In this document: piece after piece, positions 2,532-31,622 of the stretch
Layout of the letters: each line of letters opens with the position of its first letter
How positions within the stretch are numbered: the stretch's first letter is position 1
From: Antedon bifida
Taxonomy: Eukaryota; Echinodermata; Crinoidea; Comatulida; Antedonidae
Direction of reading: 5' to 3'
Length of the DNA stretch: 64,000 nucleotides
Assembly (NCBI GenBank): GCA_963402885.1
Contig: OY727101.1
Span: 16,282,417 to 16,346,416 of the forward strand
Position numbers and translations under genes: made by a program
The notes under the pieces: model-generated
Database searches by the model: none
The model's input: only the letters and a program-made list of their open reading frames with translations
What the model was told of the DNA's origin: nothing

Positions 2532-3579
2532 CCATTTTTTAAATGTTTTTTATCGCTTTGATTTTTTTTTACTAATATAAAATATATTAACAATATACTT
2601 TTGCTTTGTGTTATCACTGTTATCATTATTTCCCATTGTTTTAATTTTTTATTTTTAGTCAAATTCAACAGCGGGAAATCCATCAATAACGGTATTAAAA
2701 ACCAATAATTATAAATATGATTTCAAAATTATTTCAGAAAAGTAAACTTTGAGGTTTCATTTCTTTTTGTTGTGAGATTACAATTCATTTTCAGCTCCAT
2801 TTTATATTTAAAAAGAAAGAAAGAACAACATCAATAATTCATTTCATGATAAATTTTATTTATTCTTCTATATTATTCAAAAAATGGATTGTAATTATAC
2901 AGTAAAAATAAAATAATTAAAATTAGTATATATATATATTTCAATTGATCACATTATATTTGATTGTTAAAAAAAGTTCAGTTTCTTTAAATATATTTGT
3001 TATCATTTTAAGTTTTATTTCTCAGGGTGTTCAAAGACTTGCAAGTAGGTTAGTGTACACATACCTGTATTGTACTTCGAGATTCAAGATTGAAGATTCA
3101 AGAAATTTTATTTGTCCATAAAAATGGAAATTCACTTTGCTTGGTAGATTAAAACAACAATATTGCAACAATTTAAAACGTGCAGTATATAACAGATTAA
3201 AAATACAAGATAAAAAGTTAAAAATACTGTTAAAAATGTAAAACTATTTAAAAATTGCATTATCGTCTTACATTAGAATTAAAAATACTTATTATAAGTG
3301 GAGTACAACATTTTGTTTTACATATTTTAGTGGAATAAATAGAAAATAAAACCATTCAATAAACATATTCTTCCTAAAATATACCATTAAAATGTAATTA
3401 ATCAGGTGTTTTTTTTTTTTAAAGAAGGGTTAGGAAGGGTTTCGAAAAATGGCCAAAGCTACTTTTGCTAAAAATAACATTTTGACATACATATTAGCAT
3501 TTGACATTTAGTTCATCTTGCATGCATATTGCATGATGTTTGGTAAGTTTACAAATTAAATTTGGTTATAGTAAAATCC
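2532..3579. other. Probable BHMT 3' untranslated and flanking region
   Basis: Runs on the minus strand from the BHMT stop at 3580 towards the tRNA. Several TTTATT words (AATAAA on the gene strand) occur, including one in the LINE-like tail near 3110 and one near 2870. The true poly(A) site cannot be chosen from sequence. Confidence 0.4.
3078..3190 (-). mobile_element. LINE-like 3' tail
   Basis: On the minus strand this reads TTTTTATGGACAAATAAAA followed by repeats of TTGAATCTTCAA. A GGACAAATAAA word and a short-repeat tail are typical of L2/CR1-like LINE 3' ends. It lies about 0.4 kb past the BHMT stop codon in the same orientation, so its AATAAA could serve as a BHMT polyadenylation signal. 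Confidence 0.45.
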
Positions 3580-6500
3580 TCATTTTTTAGGAACCGGGTC
3601 GATTGTAGATAACAGTACACTCTCATTCCTACCAGTTCCTGGTTTCATGTCAGACCAATACTTTCTATTTCCTCTGCAATAAACAAATAAAAATAACATA
3701 ATCAATAATTATTGATGAACGTTAAATATATATATTTTATAAGACCAGTTAAGATCGGATAATATGGTTTAAATAGAAATTGTAGCTTTGTTTTCTCTAT
3801 TTGTTTAGCTTATGTATATATTTTTTTTCTTTTCATACTTGTATTTAATGTTATATTGTTGAGTGGGTCAAACTTTCTGACTTATATGACCCTCATGATT
3901 ACTTCATTGTATTTTTTATCCTGTATGTATGTTATTATATTGTGGAAATAAATTTAATTGAAATTGAAATTGAGGGGGGTGTCTCGAACAAGCTACAGAA
4001 GCTCAGTGTACAGGCTATATAACAAAATGTAAGCGTTAGATAATAAACAAATTGTGATGAAATCATATCAAACCAGGGTAAGCCTAATTGGTTGTTCAAT
4101 GTTGATGGTTAATATTAATTAATGCTATTTTTTATCTAGCTCTTGAATTATATCTGATACAAGAAAAGTTTTATTATTTACAGGATATAGTCATTATATG
4201 GATGAGTCTTTCAACCCATCAAATACAGAGGATGGGGGTGTCCCGAAACAAGCTACAAAAGCCCAGCAAACAGGCCTGAAGTATCAAGCAATTCCGTACC
4301 TTACTCGCTGTTCTTCAAACATACTATCCTTAAGAGATTCAAAGCCTGAAGACATGTCTTGACCAGGAGGACGGCATCCTCTTTCTACCGCTAGCTGAAA
4401 ATTAATTTAAAAAACAAAAATTAAGATTTCTACACAGTAAAACACTTATTACAAAGTTAATAAAGTATGGCTGTGAATGTTTTAACGTTCAGCGGATATT
4501 GTGCTACAACTATTCCCCAGAAGACAGTTGTTGCATAAAGCTCTGTCTACACTATCAAACTTTATGTGTCCAAAAAAATGTGATGTGCCCATATGTGGAC
4601 ATGATGATGTCATATCACTACTATATTTGGGCATATCACTACCATATTTGGGCCCATCATACTTTTTTGTCACATAAAGTTTGATAGTGTAGACAGAGCT
4701 TTGCAACCAAAACATCAATACATTCTCAACTGATGATGTACTGTAGTGTACCTTAAACCTTACTGAATACTGAATACTGAAATGCTTTATTTGTCCATCA
4801 TCATCATAAAATAACAACAGAAATTCTTCTTGAAGATTGACAATTATTAGTAAAATAATAAATAGATATACAATAAAATATATTATGTACACACACATAA
4901 TTGCACAAAAAAATATAAGTTATGAAACACGTGTAAAAATGACAAGGTATTAAAATTGAAAAGGATTCAGGAGATTAAAATAGTTTTTTTACTGTACTGT
5001 TTATTCAGCATGCAAACTTTTAAACAATATTGTTATATTATAGATACTTACTTCTTCTGCCAATGCTCTGATATGATATGGTTCAAATCCACAGCAACCA
5101 CCGATGTAATTTACGCCAAGATTATAAGCGTCACGTGCAAACTTGTGAACATCCATACGATTTAACAAACGTGTTTCCATTGCTAAAAATATAAAATATG
5201 AATAATAATATTTTTTAATTATTGACAATATTTTTACCTATAGGTTTTTTCTGTACTATTCAATTAATTTAGGTGTGGTTTTGAGTGGACTTCATACCAT
5301 CTAATGAAAAGGTAAAATATAAATGGCACACATACAAAAACACTCTCACCAATGCAAAAGATAGGACATTGGGTTAATTCAGCACTTACACAATTAAATT
5401 TTAACGGCCTTCATTTATTTGAAAGATCCTGGATCTGCTACTGGCCATATTCACCATTCACACTTAGACTAAGGGAAACACTTACTGTATCCTTAAAATA
5501 AATAAAAATCTCCTATCTAAATGAATACGATTTAAGGGAAATACTTAAATATTTAAGGGAAATATCTCACTTAAGTGTGATTGGTGAATATGGCCACTGA
5601 TTTCAAACAAAACCAGGCTTGAAATATCCACATTTAAGTACATATTATCCCACCCATAATCGAAAAATATATGGAATTAAAATTACACAAGGTCAAGTAC
5701 ATATTACGTATATCAATTTATAATAATATCAATGAAATTGAAATCAATTGATAATCTAAGTATATACATTCTATTGATAAGTTTATATATTATCAACATG
5801 AACACAAGTGGTTTGAATGGAGGTTGTAGATACAGTACCCTATAAAGATATGTAGATAAACTTCTCACCCTAACCACTATGGACCTATTTCTGTTGTTGA
5901 GGAACTGGTTCAATACTGTGTGAATTAATTACCTAAACTTTGGCAGCAGAAAAAGTTTTTGAGGAAATAATCATTAAAACACCCATTTATTGTGTAATTT
6001 AAAGTTGTAGCTATGCAAAATAATGGTTGATTGATCTGACTAAGTATAAACATATTTTTAACAAAATGGAACACACATTGAAATGTGTACTGGTTTTTGA
6101 GCACTTTGTGGATATGTGCGCTTTATAAATCTTGTTATCTTATCTTATCTTTATATAAAATTTGAATTCTTACTAAAATAAAACTTATTTTTAAACTATT
6201 CAGCAGAAATTATGACCATCCTTTTAACTCGATCAAGTTTTTAAATTGTTTTATATGTTTATATTGTATGTATCTGTCATCTTACTTACCAAAGGGAAAT
6301 TCAGGCAATGCAATATAGCCACGGGTATCTTTTTCAATTTCCTGCGTATGGTAGCCTACAGGCTGTGCCATTAGAAACACTTTGAGGTCATTTTTATCCA
6401 AAGTATCCTTCATCATCTTAAGAGTTTTCAATGCGATAGCTGGATCATACATGCAGTTAGTTCCTATAATGTCAGCACCTGATTGCATACAAAATAAAAT

Positions 6501-9500
6501 TGCATAAAATACAAAGAAACCCCTTAACGTATAAAAAAAATAGTAGGGTATCTGTTATGCTTGGTTCACATTAGAGATGCAACACACCGACACAAGAACG
6601 TTAACCAATGACAAGTGACAGTTTGAATAATCCATCACTTGTGATTGGTCAAATCACTTATGTTTTGCACTTCTGTCCTTATGTGGGAACCAAGCATTAA
6701 AACAATGGTATGTTAACTTTTTGTGATTTCTTAATAATAATATGGATTTAAATAGCGCACATACCATTCAAGAGTACTCAAGGTGCGTTAAAAAAAATAT
6801 AATAATTATATTGATGAGATTAAAGGGCATTTAGAAAGTTTTTCTATATTTATTTAAAAAACATCTTGGGACTGAAAATACTGCAATTAAAATACCTGCT
6901 TTAGCCATCCTCAAAGTACACTCTTCAACAGATACTCCATCTAGATCTCCACATATACCAATTCGCATTGTAGTAGCAATAGGCATACCAGCACCTTTCA
7001 TTACCTCTATAGCCCATTCCATTTCTACAATGTGGCCAAAGAACTATAAACAAAAACGATTAATGATTTATTATTTGATTATAATAAAAAAGATTCAATT
7101 ATTAAACTTAAATTTTAAATGGTTGTTCGTATACCAACATTCTGATTTGATGCTTTTAGAGACCATATGTCAAAATCATACAACTGTAGTTACTGCAGTA
7201 ACTGCAGTATGATTTTGACAAATGGTTTACTCTTGAACCTGTTTATGTAATCATTTAGCAATTTTTGTTTGGCTAATCATACACATTGTTTATTACAGCA
7301 GTAACTGTCTCATTTTAAACTGCTACATTGAAAGAACTAAATCATACATTATCACAGTGAAAAAATGCAGTTACTGCAGTAACTGCAGTAGAATAATGTT
7401 GACATGATCCCTTAGGATCTGTAAGACAACATTTTATATGGCATTTTTCACCATATTATGCTGCAATAGGTTTCAGTATATCTTCCTATACAAAGGCCAA
7501 TAGCAAAGGTCTTTATCAAAATGTAGTGTTAACATTGAGTAAACAAAGCTTATTTTAAGTAAACATGGACAGAAGGCACTGGAGGCACTTTTGTGTTTTA
7601 AACAAGTTAAAAATATTAACTATGTTCATGAATGCTGGAACATATGGCTAGTCATAATGACTTTGCAATTCTAATAAACATCTTGACAAGACATATCAGC
7701 AAATAAATGTGTTCAAATATGCACAATGACAATGAAATTATATGTGAGTCATTACAAATTTCATAAATTTTAAATTTTCTTTTTCAATTTAAACAAAAAT
7801 ATATGAAAAATGTATACTGAAAGAATATTACTATTGGACAAGAGTCTATTTTGTGCCTGCTTACCTGGATAAATGGACAATATAGCCCTCTCTATCCGAA
7901 GAGAGGATACAATTACGAAAAGAAATGTTGGTTTGTGTTTTAATGTGTCAGATAAAACATACAATACACATTCTTTTTCTGGGGTATTTTTCCTCATTTT
8001 AAAAACTCACTTCTGCTAGCAGAAAATCAACTTTTTTCTTCTTGTAAACCTCTATTTGTTTACGGAACTCTCCTTGCACAAACTCTTTTCCTTTGCCTTC
8101 AGTATAAGCCGGTGTTGGTGAAAGACCTCCACATACTAAGATACCACTGTCACCAGCGACCTCAAATGCTATATTACAGGCCGATTCATTCACCTCTTCA
8201 CTCTAGAAATACAATAAATTCACATTTTACAAACAAAGTTTGTAATTCACAGAATTTAATTACGTTTTCTAAAATAAATATTATAAATTGCTTTTTAAAA
8301 CAGTGCCGTAGCCACCAGTACGGTTGGTAAGGTTTCAACTTGACCACTTTTTCGCAGAGGCCTTTGACAACCCAGTGGCTTCAACAGAAACCACACCACT
8401 TTATTTATTTATTTCATCACTGTAAAAATGTATTGAACTTTTATATCAAAAGTTTTATCCTGTATGTTTCAATGCCTACAGATAATATCAATAAAACTTG
8501 GGTGCAGGATTCTTATCCTTCTTTCAGAGGATTAAAATCTATTTTAAAAACTTTTATTTCCAAAGCACTTTGAAATTTTCAAAATTTGTATTGCCATGCC
8601 AATATGAAAGTAATCTATTGAAATAAATAATCGGTTCCCGTACTATTTCAGAACAGGACAAAAACCCTAAAGAATCTGCATTGTCTAACTTTTTATTGCC
8701 AGTGACTGCTTTGTTCCTGTAATGGTAAATTTCCTGTTAACCTTTGTGACCTCCTCCATACTGGGGGCCCCTGGGAAAGTTGAAAGATACACATGAACGG
8801 GCAGGCTATTAAGCGGGAATGGAGCAGATAAATTCTTTCTCAATTTATACATTTGTCCCATCCTTTCACCAATTAACAATATTAAATCTCTTTGGCATTG
8901 TACTCTTGTTTGAAATCAATGGTAATAGAAGACTAAAGGCAATTTTCAAACAATTAACTCGGCGAACAGATAAAAACAAATTATATGGCCATTCAGTCTT
9001 ATAATAGCAACCACCTTTTCACACAAACTATACAGTACTAACTAAAATTTATCATAAATTGTGTTTCTTGTTACACAGTACTTTTTGAACTGATACTTTC
9101 AATTTGAATATAGTAAGGAAAAACAATGCTGTCCTCCTCTGTGAAAAAAATTGTTTTTTTACACAAAGAATTGAATCTTTATCTTTATATTTCCATGAGT
9201 TGAAGAGACTGTTCTATTCAACAAGGCATAATCAATGAGACAAGGAATATAGAACATTCATTATTTGTTTTATAACTCATTAAACTAATCTGCTGCTTTC
9301 AATAATCAATGTTACAAGTCAGACAAGAGACTTATAGGCCATTCATAAAGATAACATTTTGATTTTGGTCGCAGAGTAGAACAACAGCCCATAGTCGACA
9401 CGCACTACAGGTCACCAGCGTCAATATTTTGTACAAAAAGCTACTGTGTAATAGAATCATTAAATATAAAATTTACAGTGCAATAGAGCAAATACTGAAC

Positions 9501-12476
9501 AGCACATGATGTATCAGGTGTACCTACACTGTAAGTGACTTTTTTGCCTTTTCCTGTTGTAAAAGAGAGTTTGTCATCGGTTCCATAAAATGAGAATGCT
9601 TGTATGATATCTGAACCAGCACGTATATAATCCTTATGCAGTTGTTTTACTGAAATATACAATACAGAGAGTTACTGTAGCTCTAGTAATAAAAAAAAAC
9701 ATGATACACAAAGTAGTACAGTAGTAATTATGAAAAAATGATGAATTTGTATCCATAATTTAAGATTATTTCACTTCACTAGCTCTGTCTACACTGAAAG
9801 TATAGGTGACAAAACATGTGCCCATTATGGACATGATGAAGTCATATCACTACCATATTTGGGCATATCACTACCATATTTGGGCACATCACACTTTTTT
9901 TGTCAAATTAGGTTGATAGTGTAGACAGAGCTTTAGGTTCTTTCTTCAGACTCTGTCTTTACCCATAGTTGAAGTCCACACGTTGCAGGGCTTCCCTTGA
10001 AGAACCCACTTTTTTCTTAGCACCAATATCTTTGATATAATGGATTGATGATATTCATCAAAATCTGAGACAGTCAGAGTCAATCAGAATTTTGGTTTTT
10101 CAAATTTGGTTGATTTGACTCAGAAATGATTTAATGTGAAACACTATTAAAATTTGTAGGCAATGTGTCCCTTACTTCCACCCCTTTCTTTTTCAAACTC
10201 CTGGATCTGACACTGTAACACTCCCATTTTGTAAAATATTGTATTCCTAGTCTTAAGCAATTCAATCGTATGGTGCATAAGGGAGACTTGAAAATATCAG
10301 ATAACCAGCCAAATTGATTTTGACTTAAAAGGCCAAACAGACATTGCACTCCGGAAGTGACAAATGTTGTTGCATTTATATTTAATTTATGTTCTATTTC
10401 TTGGCCTTTTCTTTCTGGGATTTCACCCCTTCTTAATTTATGCATAAAACTTTTTTTTTTTAATTTGTTGTTATAATTGAGAAAGACAAATATGTTAATT
10501 GTAATTGGATGTTCTAGTGGTGAGAGGGAGGAGGGGGGCAGCTAAACATTGTAAAATGAAGTTTGTTTTTTTTTTTTTTTTTTTCTTTTGTATTGTTGCT
10601 TTTATATATGATTTGTAAATATTATACACCTGTGATATCAACTATAGGTCTTCAGTACCTGATGTTGAAACACAATGGTTTGTAATGTAAACTCTTTACT
10701 ATATATTTTATGTTTATTTTTATATACCTTTTTAAATTATCAACTCAAACCTATGATACTGTAGGACAATTTAATACAGTACCTGTATTACCATGTTGAT
10801 AATGATTTTTCTTTTATATTTTTGCAAATAGTTTAAGAACCTGTATCCGTCATATTATGTATTGTTTTGATGTATTATGTTAATTTGGATGCACCACTTC
10901 TGTGTGTGCCACCGATGCAAAGGTGTCATTTCCTAATAAATTATTATTATTATTATTATGAAGTACAATTACCACTACAACTACTTAGCTTAGTGTGTTT
11001 AATTTTCACAATTAGAGTTGGCGGGCAGGCTTGCAAAAGTCTTTATAAATTACCTCTCGTGTTCATCACCACCACACCACCTCCCACTCATAGTGGTGCT
11101 ACTGTAATTTTGTACCTAACATTCATGCTGGGCCATCCGCAGCACAGCTAGTGAATGTTTTTAAATTGGGTGGGTTAGGTACTAAGCGTCCCTAATAATA
11201 GTTAAGTGAATACAAAATCTGAGTTACCGGCTTCTGGATATACAACAGATGCCTCTGGGGTCCAGGTACCAGCTAATACATATCCCCTCTTTTCCAGAGT
11301 GACAACATAGCTACCATCTCCTATCACTGGTTTCTCTGCTAACAACTCAAGTATTCCTTTCTTTTGCTAAAAAAAATAGAAAGTTGTACAGATAAAAATG
11401 CTGTATAAATAATAATAATCATTATAGTATAAATAATAATAATCATTATAGTAATGAATTATTCATTGTGCATCTTTTAAGGTGAAATTCAAATTTGCTT
11501 AAAACCAAAAACTCCTTAGACTTAGATACACTATTATTAGTTAGTAGTACAGTTACTAGTAGCTAGCTAGGCTTAGTATGTTGGCTACTAGTACTACACA
11601 CCACTTTGCAGAAGTAGAAGTTGCTGATGTTGTTTTTAGTTTTTGCAAATAAAAATCATACCTTTTCTCTCTGAGAACTTGTCGAAAAGCTGCACACCGA
11701 AAATCGAGTAATATTTTTAGACCTAGCTAGGGCCAAAGTTGATCGGAATACAGATCCTAAATACCTCATTTTGACAAATTTATTGTGTTACTCTTATGTT
11801 TCAAATCACAACCAGTACAACATAGAAATCAGTCAAGCGTAAAATAAGCACTTGCTCTGAACTTTACTGAACCATGGCTGACCTGGGAGGCGAGTACCAA
11901 TCAAGAGCATGGTATGTTGATTTGTTATTACTGTATATCATATTATATTGATCATTGTGATAAAAATTAACGTAAATCTGCTTTATACAATGAAATACTG
12001 ATTTTAATACTGAATTTAATTAGTTCCGCAAAATATTCAAAAGAAATATTTTAAAAAAAACTCCATTAATTTGAAAGTTTTAAACGCAAATCTCAATCAA
12101 ATCCGAAGTAGTTAATTAATTTAACCCATCTTCGGTACAAATCGGACTGTTTAATCTGCTGGTGATTGTTCTAATTTTTAAAAAACATATAACGTTATAA
12201 ATACACGTCACCTCATGAAATTATAAGTGTTACGTAATAATTGTGTTTTTGCACACCACCCTTTTAGATTGCAAATGCTTCTTTTTTTCTTTGATTCCGT
12301 GGGTCAGGAAAGACCAAGTTACGTGACCTAAATTTCCAAAACCCACTGCAGGTAGCTTACTGTTCTTCAACTAATCGAGACTAAATATTAATACAAAGTC
12401 TAAAACTGGGCAATATATTATCACCATGCAAATAAAGACGGTGAAAATAAAACAATATTTTTTTTACCTGAGACAT
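3580..12476 (-). CDS. BHMT: Betaine-homocysteine S-methyltransferase, complete, two alternative first exons
   Basis: Transfers a methyl group from betaine to homocysteine, giving dimethylglycine and methionine; a zinc enzyme of the Hcy-methyltransferase family. Coding exons in transcript order: first exon 12468-12476 or 11662-11769, then 11228-11366, 9528-9649, 8011-8202, 6896-7043, 6290-6478, 5052-5182, 4300-4394, 3580-3673 (TGA at 3580-3582). All have GT/AG ends and matching phases. The short form is 372 aa and the long form 405; human BHMT is 406. Short-form landmarks: IGDG (Asp20), AGTWTPEA (Trp38), SFYGTDD, VDFLLAE (Glu154), and the zinc ligands Cys212 (GTNC) and Cys296/Cys297 in [13 protein letters not shown]. 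The C-terminus (RGNRKYW to DPVPKK) is shorter than in vertebrates. The residue after Glu154 is Phe where I recall Tyr in vertebrates. I am very sure of the family; exon ends are hand-called. Confidence 0.95.
3780..3975 (+). mobile_element. LINE-like 3' end with short-repeat tail
   Basis: Ends in TGTGGAAATAAATTTAATTG followed by ATTGAA-type repeats, a common layout for LINE 3' termini. No reverse transcriptase coding is visible here. It lies in the last BHMT intron, opposite to the gene. Confidence 0.4.
4539..4702. mobile_element. MITE family A, copy 2
   Basis: Both ends carry the AAGCTCTGTCTACACTATCA repeat in inverted orientation. The core has two tandem CACTACCATATTTGGGC words. Lies in a BHMT intron. 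Confidence 0.9.
4755..4880 (-). mobile_element. LINE-like 3' tail in BHMT intron
   Basis: The minus strand reads GATGGACAAATAAAGCATT followed by repeats of TCAGTAT. It shares the GGACAAATAAA word with the copy at 3078-3190. It lies in the intron between 4394 and 5052. Confidence 0.45.
5445..5595. mobile_element. MITE family F, single copy
   Basis: Inverted ends GGCCATATTCACCATTCACA and GTGATTGGTGAATATGGCC, flanked on both sides by ACT, a likely 3-bp target duplication. Internal AAGGGAAA words are repeated. In a BHMT intron. Confidence 0.75.
6557..6698. mobile_element. MITE family B, copy 1
   Basis: Inverted ends ATGCTTGGTTCACA and TGTGGGAACCAAGCAT. Internal arms carry AACCAATGACAAGTGA and TCACTTGTGATTGGTC. 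Lies in a BHMT intron. Confidence 0.8.
7156..7414. mobile_element. MITE family D, copy 1
   Basis: Ends TTAGAGACCATATGTCAAAA and TTGACATGATCCCTTA are inverted repeats. The doubled word CAGTTACTGCAGTAACTGCA occurs near both ends. Lies in a BHMT intron. Confidence 0.7.
9781..9933. mobile_element. MITE family A, copy 3
   Basis: AGCTCTGTCTACACT at the left and GTGTAGACAGAGCTT at the right. Core words as in other copies. Lies in the BHMT intron just upstream of exon 9528-9649. Confidence 0.9.
10800..10962 (+). mobile_element. Retroelement 3' end with ATT microsatellite tail
   Basis: The region ends CATTTCCTAATAAATTATT followed by an ATT run to about 10960, as seen at the 3' ends of some LINEs. 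Only the tail is recognisable. It lies in the BHMT intron between 9649 and 11228. Confidence 0.35.
11662..11769 (-). CDS. BHMT: Alternative first coding exon of BHMT, predicted mitochondrial presequence
   Basis: ATG at 11767-11769 opens 36 codons that end exactly at a GTATGA donor in phase 0, so it joins in frame to exon 11228-11366. An in-frame TAA lies upstream at 11788-11790, which supports this start. The peptide begins [19 protein letters not shown] and continues through [17 protein letters not shown]. It holds five Arg and one Lys before its only acidic residue near the end, with Ser, Leu and Phe between them, the usual make-up of a matrix-targeting presequence. The [12 protein letters not shown] stretch resembles a processing site. 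Translation and phase are seen directly; import into mitochondria is inference and transcription is untested. Confidence 0.7.
12468..12476 (-). CDS. BHMT: Short first coding exon of BHMT (cytosolic form)
   Basis: ATG TCT CAG followed by a GTAAAA donor, phase 0, joining to QKKGILELL in exon 11228-11366. An in-frame TGA at 12498-12500 lies upstream. The resulting N-terminus ([12 protein letters not shown]) resembles ordinary cytosolic BHMT proteins that start just before the KKG motif. Only nine coding bases are involved, so the call rests on start context, donor and phase. The longer first exon 0.7 kb nearer the gene body is the alternative. Confidence 0.55.
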
Positions 12477-12710
12477 CTTTGTGTTGAAGCTACCAGGTCA
12501 TTCACACACGTCACTGCACTAGTGACTTTTAGAACTGGGAGACGTACACTACTATGGCCTATGTAATTAAAAGCAACCAATAGCTGGCGTTAGACGACCA
12601 ACACGTTGCAATGGTTGTTTTTATCATCATCCATATCAACAGTTTATTTGATTCGTGATGACGTCATTCGTCAATAAATAACTTTTTTTCATTTGCCTGA
12701 ACCACGGGCA

Positions 12711-12837
12711 GAGTAAAGAATTCTTTACTCAATGCCTGAACACTGGTGTCGAAATACGCGAAAACTGCACAGTAGTCTACTGTTATCCGTCGGACTTATC
12801 TGAAACCATGGAGTAAAGAATAATTCTTTACTCCATG
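12711..12837. repeat. Two related palindromes, GAGTAAAGAATT
   Basis: 12711-12730 is a perfect 20-base palindrome, GAGTAAAGAATTCTTTACTC. 12807-12837 is a 31-base near-perfect palindrome with the same arm, CATGGAGTAAAGAAT. They lie 80 bases apart, upstream of the BHMT start region. Confidence 0.8.
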
Positions 12838-13069
12838 CTGAAACGGGTTAATCATTTTATAATGAAATTAATTAGGTCGATCCCTACTTAATTAGACTTA
12901 ATTGTATTATATAAATACATAGAAACAGAGATATAATACTTGGTACAAACATTATTTTATAATCAATTTTCATAATCCATGTAGCTGTATACACGATCAT
13001 ACGGCGGGTTCATTCAAATGAATAAATGATTAATCATCGAGGTTTTCATTCTGTTTACGTTGTTGTTCT

Positions 13070-13231
13070 TAAGCGTGGTTCCCACTAGATACGCAACACA
13101 ACGACGTAACTCAACGTAAGGGATTTGACCAATCACAAGCTAGCGATAGATTTATTCGACTGCAGCTCGTCATTGGTCAACTCGTTTGCGTTGCGTCTAC
13201 GTCCTTGCATTGCGTACTAGAGGGAAACAAG
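13070..13231. mobile_element. MITE family B, copy 2
   Basis: Starts AAGCGTGGTTCCCACTAGAT, with inner words TTGACCAATCACAAG and GTCATTGGTCAAC and a right end GTACTAGAGGGAAACAAG. An open plus-strand frame that starts in this element is not a gene. Confidence 0.75.
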
Positions 13232-14639
13232 TTGTACATTAGGCCTACATCCATCTTTTCTACAAATATATTCTATTTCGGCTTTGTACGTCCGGTGTTT
13301 TGTTTGATCAATTATCGGGACAACCATCACACAAAAAACCGCGCCAATAGGTATTATACCCGTTCTTTTTTCGCGTATTACAGAATCGTTAGAGAATGCT
13401 TGAGAGACTTTATTCATTGTCATTGTCGTTATCAACATCGTCATCTTATTCATGGAACGTTGACGTCATAATGTTACTTTCGTATTCATATTTTGTCAAT
13501 CACGTTTAGCGTTGTTGTTATTTTACGTATTCTCTTTTAAAAACAAATAAATGATGACTCTGCATTTCATGAAATTAATTCAATTAGTTATGTCTACATT
13601 TTATCTATTTCGTTTGCAGATACAGTTTCAAGAAAAAGTAACAATAACATGGCCAAATTGTAATAATGTAATTGAAATCAAATAATAGACCTATATCAAT
13701 TGTCAATATTGACCTGCTGTTCACCGATTATAAAAATTAAACGTCAAATAAACGTATATTATTACGTAAAATAAGCCAATCATAATCAATATTTGCTTTC
13801 TTCTTTCTTTCTGAAAATGACTAAATTGAAATAAAATGTTACCAAAACCTTTATGGTAAACAACTCAAATAAATAAATAAGGCCTATAGTGTATTCATTT
13901 GAACATGAATTTTGCATGCTACAAGCATTAATTATCTAAACTCATTTCTTTCTCTAACTAACTTTCCAAAATAACTTTTATTAACAAATTATTAAGAGTT
14001 ATTTTGAATATTTGGAAAGTTTGTAATAACATATTATTACCCCACAGCACATTCTAATAACAATATTGTTTTTGTCTACAAAGGTTAACATATACGTACC
14101 TAATTCACAATATTGTATCAATTATGGTACTTAAGTTTGATTGGGAAAATACGACATTGTTTAAAATTATATTAATATAATATATAAATGTTATACTTCT
14201 TCTCAAATAAAGAAACGTTAGAAATTTCGTGATATTTCATTTTCTTCAATTATTAAATACATTTTTTTGCTATTATTTTTTTCAAACGGCTGTTAAATTA
14301 CATCAACCAAAACTAAGGAAACACCATTGTCATGTATTAAATATTATGTAACAGTAGAGTATACACCACATAAAACACATGAATAACTAATAGTAGTAAT
14401 TTGCTATGAATAACTATTAGTCATTTGCTTAGTATTATACATCACTATACTATTTTCAACCAGAATATAAATCAAATACAGTAGACATTTAACTATAATA
14501 TAATAGGGAATTATGTTATAATCATACATAAGATACATTCTTGTATAATTGTGAATATTATCGGATTTAAATGATAAAATAATCGCAGTCTTTAAATAAA
14601 TGTATATAACGACCATCGCTCCTCGATGATGAGACATAA
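13232..14639. other. Intergenic, nothing recognised
   Basis: AT-rich sequence with short low-complexity frames only. No splice-supported coding and no repeat partner elsewhere in the window. Confidence 0.5.
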
Positions 14640-15236
14640 GAGATCAGCATAAAGACCATCAATCTTGTGGTATCCCAATATACTACACCCATACCAACTT
14701 AACCTGATGCTACTTGAGAGATCAGCAAAAAGACCATCACTCTTGTGGTATCCCAATATACTATACCCATACCAACTTAACCTGATGCGACTTATCAGCA
14801 AAAAGACATTAAATCCTGTGGTATCACCATATACTACACTCATACCAATGTAACCTGATGCTACTTGAGAGATCAGCAAAAAGACCATCACTCTTGTGGT
14901 ATCACCATACACTACACTCATACCAACTTAACCTGATGCGACTTATCAGCAAAAAGACCATTAAATCTTGTAGTATCACCATATACTACACTCATACCAA
15001 CTTAACCTGATGCGACTTATCAGCAAGAAGACCATTAAATCTTGTGGTATCACCATACACTACACTCATACCAACTTAACCTGATGCTACTTGAGAGATC
15101 AGCAAAAAGACCATCAATCTTGTGATATCCCCATATACTACACCCATAACAACGTAACCTGATGCGACTTATCAGCAACAAGACCATTAAATCCTTTTGT
15201 ATCACCATATACTACACTCATACCAACTTAATGGAA
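14640..15236. repeat. Tandem array of eight ~74-78 bp units
   Basis: Units share ATCAGCAAAAAGACCAT, CTTGTGGTATC, ACTACACTCATACCAACTTA and ACCTGATGC. Two subtypes are mixed: one begins TTGAGAGATCAGC (about 78 bp) and the other TTATCAGC (about 74 bp). More diverged copies continue to about 15420. Short ORFs across it follow the repeat and are not genes. Confidence 0.85.
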
Positions 15237-16015
15237 CTTCAGAGATATGAAAGCCAAGACATTCACTCTAGAGCTCTTGCATACCAAACTGGTAATTTAG
15301 CCAAAAGTCATTCACTCCAGAGCTATTACTTACATACCAAACTGGTAAAAGACCAAAAGATTAATCCAAAGTGTGCTACACTAGAGTATAAATATACCAA
15401 CCTGATGTGACTTTTGAGTCAAGATCTGGGATACACGACAATGTGCTGTCGCCCACAGTAAGAGCAAGGAAGCATCAGCCTGTTACCAAATTACAATTAC
15501 CCATATAGAGCAACATGAAACATAATGTAATCAAAGTCTGAATTAGTTATACAGTAGTTCAATTACACATAAATTAAAAGAAACATTAAATTTGCAATAT
15601 TATAATCTTAAAATACAATATATTTAGTCAATGGTGCAATATATATAATACAGGTGGTAAAATGTAAGGACAGAGTAAAGGAAAGCAATTATGGTAAAGG
15701 AATCAGAAAGAAAGATATCTGAACCATGGAGGAAATATGATATAATTTATATATTTCCTCCATGTCTGAACTTAGCATCAGTACTCCATTTAGTACAATA
15801 TATGAGACTACATAACCAAGGGCCCTTTTTCCAGAATTAAGTGTTTGTCACTGCAGTGTTTCCAACCATGGATTGACAAAACAACGGTTGACTACAGAAC
15901 ACATTGGGGTAAAGTTGTTTAATGAGTATGTCCACACATGTGCATTTTCAATCAACAGTTTCATTCCTACATTTACCTAACTGATACAATGGATTCAAAT
16001 AAACATGCTTTTGTT

Positions 16016-16146
16016 AAGCTCTGTCTACACTATCAAACTAGTTTGACAAAACAAGTGTGATGTGCCCAAATATGGTAGTGATATGTCCATATATGGGCAC
16101 ATCACATTTTTTTGTCAAACAAAGTTTGATAGTGTAGACAGAGCTT
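16016..16146. mobile_element. MITE family A, copy 4
   Basis: Near-perfect inverted ends AAGCTCTGTCTACACTATCA; shorter core. The flanks GTT and ATG show TTA-like sequence next to the ends, so a TA target duplication is possible. Confidence 0.9.
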
Positions 16147-16334
16147 TATGTTCATGTTTTGTATTCATTGGAAAACATGTACCAAACCACAGCTTGACAA
16201 TTCTTTCTATTTCACTTTTCATAAATTTAAATTATTTTAGTTATAAAACACAAGTGCATAGCATTTTGTAATTACTGTATTCTAGTCAATATGTTAAAAA
16301 TGTTTTGTTCTGGTCCTAAAGCTTAACTGGAAAC

Positions 16335-16640
16335 TGAAGAAATTTGGATTAGGCCCTTCACAGACCCACGGCAGCCAGCAGTGCAGCACCTACCAGATCA
16401 GCATACAAGGAGACCATCCCCTGCTCTTTTCGAATAATGTACCAAGTTCTTTAATGTGCACTATATGTACACGGAACCAACAACTTTAAATCCCATCCGA
16501 AGGACGAGGCAATGAAAGTAAAGCATCTTTGCAATCAGTACAATACAGATAGACTCGAACCCATGCCTATCACATGCTATGCTAGTCAGAAATTATCATT
16601 ACACTATCACTTTCCGGTATATACAGCACCCACCACGATT
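16335..16640 (-). mobile_element. Inverted SINE-like repeat
   Basis: Contains TCCCATCCGAAGGACGAGGC and then AATGAAAGTAAAGCATCTTT, a block I recall from dispersed repeats in several marine invertebrates. It is followed by ACTCGAACCCATGCC, the reverse complement of a tRNA B-box. This suggests a tRNA-headed SINE on the minus strand. The A-box side is degenerate. Confidence 0.5.
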
Positions 16641-20082: not shown

Positions 20083-23000
20083 TTACACATACAAATCGGA
20101 AATGTCGACTATAATTTTGAAAAAAACTGTATCCTCTTTTACATACATACCATCCTGAAGTACGGACTGGGCAACAAATAAAGGGCATCCAGACGCAATA
20201 TTCATATCGGTGACGGGACGCTTGAAACTGCTGCTCGACGGATCTGGTCGGAACGAATCCGATAGGTGTCGTCGACCAGTTTCTTGGTCGAGAAGCATAA
20301 GTGTTACCTGTAAAAAATGCAAATTATTTACATAATAACTACAAATATTAGAATTATTATTACATTATATTAAAAGTGAAATGTGCCCAAATATGGTAGT
20401 GTTATGCCAAAATATGGTAGTGATATAACATCATCATGTCCATATATGGGCACATCACATTTTGTTGTCACATAAAATTTGATATTTTTTGAGTGTATAT
20501 TTATATAAATATAAATTTGAGTGTGGACAGAGCTTTATACTAACCTTTTGTCTGAATGGCCAAGGAAGAAGAGCATCGTAGTCCCCTTTCATAACAACGA
20601 AAAAAAGAGAAACATGCGAGCCCTTTCCCATACCATCTCCGTTCAGATACACTCTTGCGCACATCTTGTATCCGAACCGACTGGTGTAGAATGGCTGGCT
20701 GTAAAGCGACAATGTCTTTCCCGAATCGGCATCACGTTTACGTCTGCTCAAATCCTTTATTTTCCAAATAAGAACGCCATCGTAACTGGCCGTCTCTAGA
20801 ATCTGAAATCTCAGATCCTGTTCTGCCAAGCGAATGGAGTGTAGTCCAACATCTTTATCCAGTGTTGTAATTCGACTGTGAAAGTTATCTGCAAATATAG
20901 CAGAAAAGTTAATTTTTGTATACTGGAGGTGAAAGTTATTAGTTAACTATAATATATTGTAAAATGTGAAACACAGATGCTTCCGACAGATCAAGTCTAT
21001 ATGCACCAAAGGTACTTTCAGTGGAGTACATTACTATTGTAAGGGACTACTGCACTTACTATTATTAGCCGGTTTACATAATCCCAAACTATAATAATAC
21101 TCACTTAATTGTGCAGCCCCAATATTAGATGCTCCGCCTCCTCCAACTGGCACTGAAAACCTTGTCTCTTCAAGAATTTGAACTTTTGATTCAAGATTTT
21201 TTACGGCATCATGTTCACTCAGTAACTTGGCGCTCAATTCGTTTATTTCTTCTTTATTCGATGTCGTTTGTATCTTTTTTTCCAACTCAGTAATGACGTC
21301 CAATCGAGTTGCAAGCATTCTCTGAAAGATTTAGCGACAATATTTGTTCCATCCTTAAAATATGACTCAGCCCTCTTGAACCGTAAAATAGGTGCACGAA
21401 TAAAACATTGTTACTTTTTATCAATTCAAACATAGGTTGAAAAATGCTGACAAAATATGATAAAATGTAGTACCAAATATGTTCGGGTATAATCCCACTT
21501 AGGGTCTAATCCCACTCCTACTTTATGTCTGATTTAACAAACAAGCATATCCCTGGTATAGTCCCAGTATTAACTTTTGGTCTGGATGTAGGCCTCTCTT
21601 TAGCCAGTTCAGATGAGTTTTTACAAGAAATGCTTACCAATCATTTTTTTTAATGAAACAGGCTTTCCCCGGATATAGTCCCATCCCCCAAAGTCTAAGG
21701 CCTAATTTCTTGTTCTATGTGGGATTATACCTGAGAATATACAGTAGTATGGTGCTTACAATTTTGTAATAATCAACATTTAATTAGTCAAACCTGTCCT
21801 AGTGCACATGTAAAGAATTTGGGTTATCAACAATTCAAACAATATTAGGACTCAATTTACCATAATCGACCAAATCATATTTTCACAATTAGATCAATTT
21901 CCTGGTCATCGAAAATTAATTTGATAGCTAAATTTAAAAATTATTATGACCTTCTTTGCAAGTTCCTAAAAATCATAAATGGTCCTTATTACAGCTTATT
22001 TTTTAGTTGCGACGACCTACACCCTATATTTCTTATTAATTAACTGTGTGTGTGTGCAGGGCCAATGAGATGTGCTCATTTTAGTCCTTGATTCAATTTT
22101 GACAGATATTATGTCTAGCATAGCAATATAGTGATAGGTCTTCGCAACTCTAATTATTAAATCGTTAATGATCACAATATATATATTGGTATGTGATATC
22201 ACAATATAATATATATTTGTTTGTGATCATGTAAGTATGGCATTCAATGCAATTAGACAATTAAATCTATATTATTAATATATACCTCTGTTGAGCAACA
22301 ATGAAAAATACACTGTCAATCCTAATATAAACTGGAAACAAAACAGAATTTTGAATTCATGCAATTTCATATCATTATTAAATTTTGATTTCATATGTAA
22401 GGTATGACAGTGCTTTTTCAAGGCATTTCCATTCATAATTTTAGCACACAAAAAATGTGTTTTTTTCCCATAAAATAAAAATAATAAATGCAATTTTTGT
22501 TAGTAAATTAGTAAATGTAAAAAATAACTAATTAAACTTTACTCAAAGTTTATCAATGTTTTCTGCCATGGCACACATTATCCACATTCTTCAGAGAATA
22601 TTTGTTATTATTCAGAAAATGTATAGTATCTGTTCCTATGTTTCAGCATTTGCCTCCTTGCCAAAGTTAAGCCTTAGTTTTTTAAATATCTTAAAAGAAT
22701 ATAGTACTGCAATTGTGCCATGTTGATCAAGATTTGATTGAAATTCCAAAGGCAAATTTTTTAGCGATTCTAGCTTACTTTGATTGTAGATAATTTAATT
22801 CGTTGACATCTGATGTAGAAAATAGACTTCTGTTCTGAGAGCTATTCACATCTGTAACTACAGTACCTTCTTCTGTATTAGCTTTTTAAACAAGGCAATT
22901 TGGAAGAAAAAGACTAAACTTTTTCTACTACTATCCAGTACTGATTACGTTAGTTACATTACAAATAAACGTAACAGAACTAATTTTAGTTGGGTTTATA

Positions 23001-29000: not shown

Positions 29001-31622
29001 ATATATTGATATCAATAGCTGTTTAAATTTGAGCATGGCAGAAATAAAAAAAATCAGAAGGCTTGAAAGATAGAAAAGCATGGCTGAGACAGTGAAAGGC
29101 AATTACTGTATTATGAGTTTCAGCAAATAAACAGCAACAAGCAGTAGATATTTTGCATGATGGAAATAACTAGAAAAACAAAGACGTATTATGGTGATCT
29201 GTTAGTTGGCATGGTGATCTGTTAGTTGGCATGGTGATCTGTTAGTTGGCATGGTGATCTGTTAGTTGGCAATATTACTTTTAAGCAGGTTTGTAAGTAC
29301 AATAGTATTTGTTTATTTTATGGATGTTTGTAGATAATATAACACACATATAACACCTTCCTCTTTGGGCAATACAAACCATAAGTTTACCTTTTTCTCT
29401 TGCATGGTATATTCTTCTCCGCAGTTGATGCATGTAATGACACGAAATTGACAGTCAATTTTTAAATGGTTCATGTAATCTTGTCTGGCCATTCTCGCAG
29501 TACAACCCCTCTCCTTGTGCATACAGTCTATCATTTGAAATGCACATACTTCGAGATGAGACTTTAATTCTTTTAGTTTGAACTCATATGTACAGCCACT
29601 TGGTTGGTTAGTGCAAAAGATTATCATGTTTTCAATTTTTTTACGAGCAAAATGATCTGGATTCATTTCGTTTATGTTGATTTCTTCTTCCTTGCAGTTT
29701 GGGCATTGAAAGATCGGGCCGTCTGCCTGCCTAAGTATTTAAAAATATATATAACATTTTTTACAATTATATTTTTAATTTTTCTGTTCACTTAAATGGA
29801 ATATATATAAGTGTACAAAAAAATGATTTGACGTTAATGAACAAACTAACAATCAATTAAACATGGGAGCACTAACATAATAATGTTAATAGTCATCAAA
29901 AATAGATATCACAAAAGTGGTAGTCAGAGAGGGATGCCCCTAATGTTCCATGGATGTGGATTTCTATAGTAATCCCAGGTATTATTTAGGTATACATTTA
30001 CACCTCCCTCACTGTAGATGTTTTATAATTAAAGGTTTCATTTGTCTTTTTTTTACATTTTTTGTAGTTGACTGTTTTTGTATACTTAAGTGTTTTGTTT
30101 TTTACGTAAGGTAAGTTTAAATCTGCAATTATTTTGAGAATGTATTTTTTTTTCATAGTTCTGAACAGTATGATGATGAGTATGAACATTCCAAACATTG
30201 ATTTTTCCTATGACCTATTTATGGGTTTCAAATATTACTTTGAATGGGAAACTTTAATACAATAAGCACATTGTATTGACTACAATCATGGACATTACGC
30301 AATGGTAGAATTCTGCAGACTGTATGGTCGTTAAAATATCATGTTACATATTAATTTATGTCGGATACTTTGAAAGGTCAAGGTAAAGTTATCTAACTTT
30401 TTGTATAAGAACTTAAATATGTAAATGAATTAAATGTTTCTCATAAGGATATTAACAGTAAAAAAATAGTTTTCCCTTTGTGATTGATGTCTATTGAAAA
30501 AGTACATTGTAATTATATGTCAGTTAAATTATGATAGAAAATCTGAATTGGTTAGCCAGACAGGATACTTGTCTTCAACTTTTTTATAATTATTTTTAAA
30601 ACTTGCTTTCACTTCAATTTAAAGGAAATAATCTGATGACATCTCAACATTAAATATAAAATCATTTACCTGGTGGAGCTCAAACAGAATGTATTGAAGA
30701 TTTGTGAGTATTGGTAATTTTTAAATACTATTTGTTTTTTTTTAAATATCTTAACAACATTAAGTAGCTTGGTTAAAGTCTAGACAGACTGATGACAAAC
30801 CTCTATATCTCAACAAATACACTAAATCATAATTAATATTTTTCATTCACATTGTTGGAGATTATGCCATGAATGAATATGGTTGAAATTTTTAAAATAA
30901 TTTGTTGTTCATTAAATTTTCAATATAATGTTTACTGTTAATGTTTATGCATGAAATTATTTACAGTTAATACAGTACTATGATTTTTCTTTCACGTTTA
31001 TCGATGGTAAGTTTCATATTTTGATTATCTCTATTTCTTTATTGAATATCAATTTTTTGTGTATATATTACTTTTACTAACTTTTTAGATAATCTAAATA
31101 TTGTGTTACACAACAGTTTCATATTTTCAATGGTAGTGTGTTTTTCTGTAGGCAAGTATAGGGGAGATATTTCTTCATGGGGAAAGGTTGGACAAACACT
31201 GATGAGGCATATTGTTCAAAAAAATAAATTCTAAATTTAGTACTAGTACTCATAGTAATAACCAGTAAACTTTTCATTTGTGACAGTTAATTATTAAGAC
31301 CTAGTGCATAGAAAGATTCTTGAGCAATTTAACGAGGGCTACATGAATGCAAGGCAGTCAAATCTAACGCTAACTTTCCCAGTTATCAGTAGTAACACCC
31401 CTAGACTTACTCTGCATAGCGCATAATGCAGCCTTTGCAGAACCGACAACCACATGTTGCTTGTTGAGGCCACCTCAGTGCAAATTTACATATTCCGCAG
31501 AAGAACTCCGCTATAAGAGCAATCTTGAATACCACATTGTAGCCTTCTTTCTCCCCGATAGAAGAAGGCGGAGAGGATGATGCTGAAGACAGAACAGACG
31601 ATACTAGACTGTTCGATGCCAT
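20083..31622 (-). CDS. TRAF3: TNF receptor-associated factor, TRAF3-like, complete coding region
   Basis: Cytoplasmic adaptor and E3-type protein that binds TNF-receptor-family tails and regulates NF-kB and interferon signalling (family knowledge). Coding exons in order: 31411-31622, 29391-29730, 26111-26188, 24788-24865, 23038-23271, 21105-21321, 20545-20888, 20083-20307. Phases are continuous and give 575 aa; human TRAF3 is 568. RING: residues 42-83 ([17 protein letters not shown]). TRAF zinc fingers: about 100-240. Coiled coil: about 255-370. MATH domain: about 405-565, with [46 protein letters not shown] and [13 protein letters not shown]. These MATH blocks are closest to TRAF3 among the TRAFs I remember. 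The usual RING His is Cys59. The ATG follows an acceptor (gttttacag), so a non-coding 5' exon must lie upstream. Human TRAF2 and TRAF5 are less similar. Confidence 0.95.
20371..20535. mobile_element. MITE family A, copy 6, in last TRAF3 intron
   Basis: The left end is decayed; the right end GTGTGGACAGAGCTT is intact. The core has ATGTGCCCAAATATGGTAG. The element ends nine bases from the splice donor of TRAF3 exon 20545-20888 and fills most of that 237-base intron. Confidence 0.8.
21484..21745. repeat. Dispersed repeat J, copy 1 (TRAF3 intron)
   Basis: Matches 26480-26725 in the same orientation for about 250 bases. Shared words: AATCCCACTCC, TACTTTATGTCTGATTT, ACAAACAAGCATATCCC, GGATGTAGGCCTCTCT, ATGCTTACCAATCATTTTTT and CAGGCTTTCCCCGG. 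No terminal inverted repeats were seen. Confidence 0.75.
23402..23651. mobile_element. MITE family E, copy 1 (TTAA-flanked)
   Basis: Left end TTAAAATATCCCAATATGTC; right end GGGGGACAATACATCTTTAA. The right end matches the inverse of the left end of the 61.2-kb copy. In a TRAF3 intron. Confidence 0.6.
25461..25640. mobile_element. MITE family D, copy 3 (right end missing)
   Basis: Starts TTAAGGGACCATGTCAAATT, then CTGCAGTTACTGCAG and TATACAATTATCTATCAAGC. The matching right terminus was not found. In a TRAF3 intron. Confidence 0.6.
25803..25955. mobile_element. MITE family A, copy 7
   Basis: Intact inverted ends, flanked by TATA on the left and TATA on the right, consistent with a TA-type duplication. 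Lies in a TRAF3 intron. Confidence 0.9.
26480..26725. repeat. Dispersed repeat J, copy 2 (TRAF3 intron)
   Basis: Partner of 21484-21745. The phrase GGTATAGTCCCA occurs twice in this copy, about 120 bases apart, which hints at an internal duplication. Confidence 0.75.
27540..29280. repeat. Nested tandem and interspersed repeats in TRAF3 intron
   Basis: A unit of about 110 bases with ATTGTCTGAATAATTATTGA, CAGTCATCGTATT and AACAAAACACTAG recurs near 27560, 27748 and 28596. A second unit with GGCAGAAAT, AATCAGAAGGCTTG, AGAAAAGCATGGCTGAGACA and AACAGCAACA recurs between 28740 and 29160. At 29192-29271 the 20-base word ATGGTGATCTGTTAGTTGGC is present four times in perfect tandem. Confidence 0.8.

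Follow-up and report, generated by a model that had tools for sequence, protein, structure and literature searches.

A diverged BHMT-family gene of the crinoid Antedon bifida with two candidate first exons, one encoding a presequence-like leader

Vertebrates make betaine and oxidise dimethylglycine in mitochondria, while the BHMT step between them takes place in the cytosol. Dual localisation by alternative transcription start is known for Gpx4. The same mechanism is described for aminoacyl-tRNA synthetases (PMC7600831), and BHMT is placed among cytosolic and nuclear pathways in PMC8773781. Here, a BHMT-like gene of Antedon bifida is considered, which lies in a stretch of 64,000 nucleotides (the window; C14:16282417-16346416) within a 315.6 Mb, 27-contig genome. 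The gene occupies the minus strand, and its exons 2-9 join into an intact 369-residue open frame ending at a stop codon. Two candidate first exons precede this frame, one adding three residues and the other an Arg-rich leader of 36 residues. A mitochondrial form of the enzyme, made either beside a cytosolic form or from the leader start alone, probably exists, as judged from the sequence; that one gene serves cytosol and mitochondria from two starts is the reading preferred here, and it is held tentatively.

The distal candidate first exon occupies, in its coding part, 12468..12476 on the minus strand (ATGTCTCAG, followed by gtaaaa) and, as an earlier note on this DNA had claimed, adds MSQ only before a phase-0 donor (CAG/gtaaaa). 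The proximal candidate (11662..11769, minus strand) encodes the leader and ends at the phase-0 donor AAG/gtatga. The earlier note had placed these two exons about 0.7 kb apart, each joining exon 2 in phase 0 and each behind an in-frame stop; the coordinates hold, with a separation of 699 bases and in-frame stops 24 bases (TGA) ahead of the distal ATG and 21 bases (TAA) ahead of the proximal one. Both exons have usable donors and can be joined to the same exon 2 (11228..11366, minus strand; QKKGILELL...), which starts in phase 0 behind a good acceptor (tttttttttag/CAA). Both ATGs carry A at -3, and the donors score 2.32 for MSQ and 2.98 for the leader on a donor matrix, the seven donors of exons 2-8 spanning 0.33-4.94. 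The leader exon also holds a weaker internal phase-0 donor, use of which would end the exon at 11698, after 24 codons. From exon 2 to 16.5 kb, four ATGs reach a phase-0 donor scoring at least 1.5 (11769, 12476, 15964 and 16417), and within 4.5 kb those of MSQ and the leader are the sole ones. The idea that the leader, in its full length, is spliced in frame between MSQ and exon 2 was rejected, there being no AG between the in-frame TAA at -21 and the leader ATG. Origin of the leader from a repeat or transposon is likewise unsupported, as the leader and its flank matched only their own locus in a genome search that scores only the best candidates.

The description of the leader as rich in Arg and Ser and nearly free of acidic residues is confirmed by its composition (5 Arg, 2 Lys, one Glu and 11 Ser/Thr in 36 residues). 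Its first 30 residues contain 4 Arg, 1 Lys, 9 Ser/Thr and no acidic residue, the Arg-rich, acid-poor N-terminus of a matrix presequence, and their charge falls within the range of 12 human presequences used as controls (2-5 Arg and 0 acidic each). The helix moment of the leader, 0.46, is inside the controls' range of 0.26-0.75. A presequence rule for the first 30 residues, asking for 3 or more Arg, no more than 1 acidic residue, a net charge of +4 or above and a moment of 0.40 or above, is passed by the leader and by 8 of the 12 human presequences. In 340,002 strand-bases, comprising the window and the fetched methyltransferase regions on both strands each, a phase-0 donor with a score of at least 0 follows 156 ATGs within 20-60 codons; only four of these exons pass the rule, namely the leader and three with weaker donors, and exons other than the leader thus pass about 0.01 times per kb of strand. 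About 0.03 such exons are expected per 3 kb, an optimistic figure, as knowledge of the leader preceded the choice of the rule. A less strict charge filter had been applied before, to the window only, and left 4 of 29 pairs; two of these came from the leader ATG and the other two from a single Lys-rich frame at about 30.2 kb. The evidence for the leader exon is stronger than that for MSQ, since leader-like exons are much rarer than short pairs resembling MSQ.

The gene had been identified as BHMT, which holds at the level of the family and not at that of the orthologue: it is a diverged paralogue beside a canonical copy. Homology to four human and rat BHMT sequences from PDB is clear (phmmer, E 4e-118 to 2e-116, human residues 8-365), and exon 7 (5052..5182, minus strand) matches PF02574 (S-methyl_trans) above the cut-off. 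At least six BHMT-type copies exist in the genome, namely the window copy, one on C15, three on C12 and one at C14:14.34 Mb. The C15 copy, with exon 2 from about 13,248,178, is canonical and full-length and shares 67.1% identity with human BHMT, compared with 51.4% for the window copy, which shares 48.5% with the C15 copy; the identities involving C15 are approximate, its sequence having been assembled from joined pieces. The second exons of these two genes have identical intron positions and phases at both ends. Two adjacent and very similar BHMT-like genes at C12:9463000-9482999 are probably a recent tandem duplication, and a short repeat reading GRPMDY sits between their second exons. A single scan for bacterial relatives, meant to root a tree of the family, returned one match, at 29%.

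Among 21 human positions compared, 18 are kept in the C15 copy and 12 in the window copy (C217, C299, C300, D26, G27, W44, T45, F74, F76, Y77, E159 and W352). Changes in the window copy include Y160F, G28S, E21K and the loss of H338, those at E21 and H338 being alignment-dependent. C217, C299 and C300, which we take to be the zinc ligands in BHMT numbering, are all present, the first encoded in exon 6 (6290..6478, minus strand) and the Cys pair in exon 7. W44 and Y160 presumably belong to the betaine site. F76 and Y77 are described as betaine-site residues in PMC3871600. Of these four, F76, Y77 and W44 are kept in the window copy and Y160 is replaced by Phe; the C15 copy keeps all four. The hook and the C-terminal tetramerisation helix are named regions of BHMT (PMC4516251); in the window copy, Y363 of the hook is not kept, similarity ends at human residue 365 with 11 residues remaining (phmmer), and the canonical C-terminal tail, including this helix, is absent. 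The residues kept suggest that the window copy is likely an active zinc methyltransferase for which betaine is only one candidate methyl donor.

The start region of the gene coincides with a CpG-preserved, promoter-like block at 11684..13900, delimited from windows of the CpG observed/expected ratio and a change point, which spans MSQ and fades at the leader. In 600-base windows, the ratio is 0.93-1.67 at centres 12200-13800 and 0.59 at 11800, falls to 0.07-0.65 over the gene body (centres 3400-11400) and is low again, at 0.07-0.66, at centres 14200-16600. Preservation peaks at centres 13000-13400, upstream of MSQ. A two-segment fit over 13.9-3.5 kb, whose 13.9 kb limit was picked to exclude depleted DNA farther upstream, puts the change point within the leader exon, at 11684, with support over 11608-12105 and a log-likelihood gain of 33.9. 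Invertebrates commonly methylate gene bodies, and if this animal does so, the promoter block free of methylation extends over MSQ as far as the leader. CpG preservation does not discriminate between the MSQ and leader starts. It does bear on the explanation that neither is the main start and that translation begins elsewhere, from a non-coding or farther exon: the phase-0 ATGs with donors at 15964 and 16417 would provide for this, as would non-coding first exons, which are invisible to an ATG-donor scan, but both ATGs lie 4.6-5.1 kb off, in the CpG-depleted DNA beyond the block, and such a start is considered very improbable.

Candidate first exons of the five paralogues were scanned over 4.5 kb upstream of each (3.5 kb for one), giving 7, 6, 1, 13 and 8 candidate ATGs. 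None of these 35 passes the presequence rule that the leader passes, including the 7 within 4.5 kb of the canonical C15 gene. Some candidates run to at least 20 codons and have better donors than the leader's, for instance frames of the GRPMDY repeat, and one near the C14:14.34 Mb copy, MIIIISFFYDKPVFRKRSTLQYYSAGTWERMATQVK, has 3 Arg, 2 Lys, 2 acidic residues and a moment of 0.22. Many are very short, like MSQ, and those favoured by eye at the other paralogues read MPRKVK, MEKNIK, MDKRPK and MATQVK. At C15:13240001-13250000, two candidates at positions 5938 and 7326 are attractive by eye, MAARVNEK and MADLQTRYRA, the latter with TATAAAAGG lying 136 bases ahead of it. The gene pair formed by the window and C15 copies may be prone to alternative first exons.

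Several results weigh against a gene with two starts. In 128 kb of strand, 33 exons of 2-10 codons, MSQ among them, run from an ATG to a donor no weaker than that of MSQ (0.26 per kb), so the MSQ exon alone is close to chance and carries little information. For the leader, the presequence rule was set post hoc, and without the donor requirement 19 of 1054 ATG frames of at least 30 codons pass it, the leader included; presequence-like open frames as such are therefore not rare. The leader's amphipathicity does not exceed that of its own shuffles, of which 2183 of 10000 reach the same moment. A codon test gives it -0.009 bits per codon in frame, with the other two frames slightly higher; a score this high is also reached by 5 of 50 open stretches of intron, which overlap one another (mean -0.22). 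The processing site that had been proposed stands only in part, as RF/S fits the R-2 rule and the R-10 octapeptide rule, which wants F, L or I at -8, finds S there. The CpG change point is a coarse marker and not a sharp one, because the same fit to the C15 paralogue falls at 8869 (6630-9150, gain 11.8), a point already beyond 8178, where exon 2 of that gene starts.

Part of this evidence would suit a gene that starts only at MSQ or at another non-leader site, in which the leader frame is a chance stretch of intron 1 and the product an ordinary cytosolic BHMT-like enzyme. The paralogue scan, the peak of CpG preservation upstream of MSQ with its intermediate value at the leader, the frequency of donor-less presequence-like frames and the lack of in-frame support in the codon test agree with it. 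Against it stand the leader's in-frame upstream stop, a donor stronger than that of MSQ and the rarity of its combination of composition and donor, and this explanation is judged somewhat unlikely. The converse, in which all transcripts begin at the leader and the ATG and donor of MSQ are paired by chance, would make the window gene a dedicated mitochondrial BHMT-like paralogue and the C15 copy its cytosolic counterpart, the two roles having been split by duplication. The frequency of MSQ-like pairs, the canonical C15 gene without a presequence-like first-exon candidate and the strong divergence of the window copy from it agree with such a split. CpG preservation nevertheless reaches about 2 kb upstream of the leader, beyond MSQ, MSQ has an upstream stop of its own, and very short candidates are common near the paralogues; a leader-only gene is thus rated as unlikely, below a start at MSQ alone.

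Dual localisation by promoter choice, which the earlier note had put forward, is a fair reading because in-phase exons and a presequence-like leader lie in, or at the edge of, the CpG-preserved block; the weight given to MSQ, the orthology with BHMT and the processing site are the parts that came out weaker than had been claimed. In the proposed two-start mechanism, transcription of the diverged BHMT-family gene would begin at two places within the CpG-preserved DNA of about 11.7-13.9 kb. Transcripts beginning before 12476 would have MSQ spliced to exon 2 and encode a cytosolic enzyme, while those beginning just before 11769 would have the leader spliced to exon 2 and encode a precursor for the mitochondrial matrix. 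The leader would then be cut off in the matrix, leaving almost the same enzyme, which would methylate homocysteine with betaine or a related compound as the donor. Transcription of both exons, import, cleavage and substrate are all predictions from the DNA.

The steps on either side of BHMT were also considered. Choline dehydrogenase, which we take to be mitochondrial, is represented by a long open frame at C15:2401848-2403434 (636 codons; 757.5 bits to TIGR01810, cut-off 732.1). The residues ahead of its conserved domain read ARSFSTTSSRSQEYSHVIVGAG, and by eye, with no statistic attached, SFSTSSQ of the leader resembles RSFSTTSSRSQ in this stretch. In the choline dehydrogenase frame, no ATG precedes the conserved domain in frame, and the end on this side looks like a presequence, which makes an upstream exon likely. 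The genome also has FAO_M domains of the type found in dimethylglycine dehydrogenase (4 matches from 6 candidates), so that enzymes of the steps flanking BHMT probably exist in it. A two-promoter echinoderm BHMT-family enzyme could bring choline oxidation, homocysteine methyl transfer and dimethylglycine oxidation together in the matrix and regenerate methionine on site, though this fuller scheme is doubtful. Mitochondria are without methionine adenosyltransferase activity and import S-adenosylmethionine according to PMC8773781, and a complete matrix methionine cycle is therefore not expected, a further point against the dual gene.

The remaining exons of the BHMT-like gene, all on the minus strand, are exon 3 (9528..9649), exon 4 (8011..8202), exon 5 (6896..7043), exon 8 (4300..4394), whose donor after 4300 leaves the frame open up to the stop, and exon 9 (3580..3673), which contains the stop codon and gives a shorter C-terminus than that of canonical BHMT. 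Past the 3' end of the gene lies a tRNA-Ser (GCT) gene on the plus strand (2450-2534), with a small CpG-preserved patch beside it at 2200-2600. The upstream neighbour is a TRAF-type gene on the minus strand (20458-20946 and 29316-29738) with a MATH domain and a TRAF zinc finger, as found among the 7 of the window's 38 long open frames that were scanned for domains. A mitochondrial genome of 15,844 bases and 73% A+T forms contig C27, and its COX1 reads sensibly under the echinoderm code, with AAA as Asn (RNVNTTFFDPAGGG).

Vertebrate BHMT (PDB 1lt7, 4m3p, 8d45 and 1umy) resembles the window copy in barrel homology and zinc cysteines, and the window copy differs from it in Y160F, E21K, G28S, the loss of H338 and a possible leader. 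Mammalian BHMT2 is, like the window gene, a diverged second copy. The comparison of BHMT with BHMT2 in PMC4516251 notes missing carboxy-terminal residues, and BHMT2 is described there as confined to mammals and in tandem with BHMT. In contrast, the window gene belongs to an echinoderm and shares no contig with the canonical copy. For the sea urchin, the same deuterostome paper reports BHMT only, and its main text does not contain the string 'mitochondri' (PMC4516251). The sea cucumber Apostichopus japonicus has BHMT1 and a BHMT1-like protein in its proteome (PMC4783884) and is thus an echinoderm with two BHMT-type proteins. BHMT in a mitochondrial preparation of icefish muscle (PMC9330239) was set aside, as the table concerned also lists cytosolic and muscle proteins. 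Among the matches listed on BHMT with mitochondria, residues or invertebrates, none describes a mitochondrial BHMT, which is weak evidence of absence given that most subscription papers lay outside the search. If real, a matrix BHMT would close the compartment gap of the vertebrate pathway and put methionine synthesis beside mitochondrial translation, and it would illustrate the reuse, in a marine animal, of a duplicated betaine-metabolism enzyme. The mechanism is known for the aminoacyl-tRNA synthetases and Gpx4 and for the BHMT-like gene is inferred from DNA alone; the arrangement proposed here is the one known from them, in which a single gene gives two transcripts and a presequence exon is present in only one of these.

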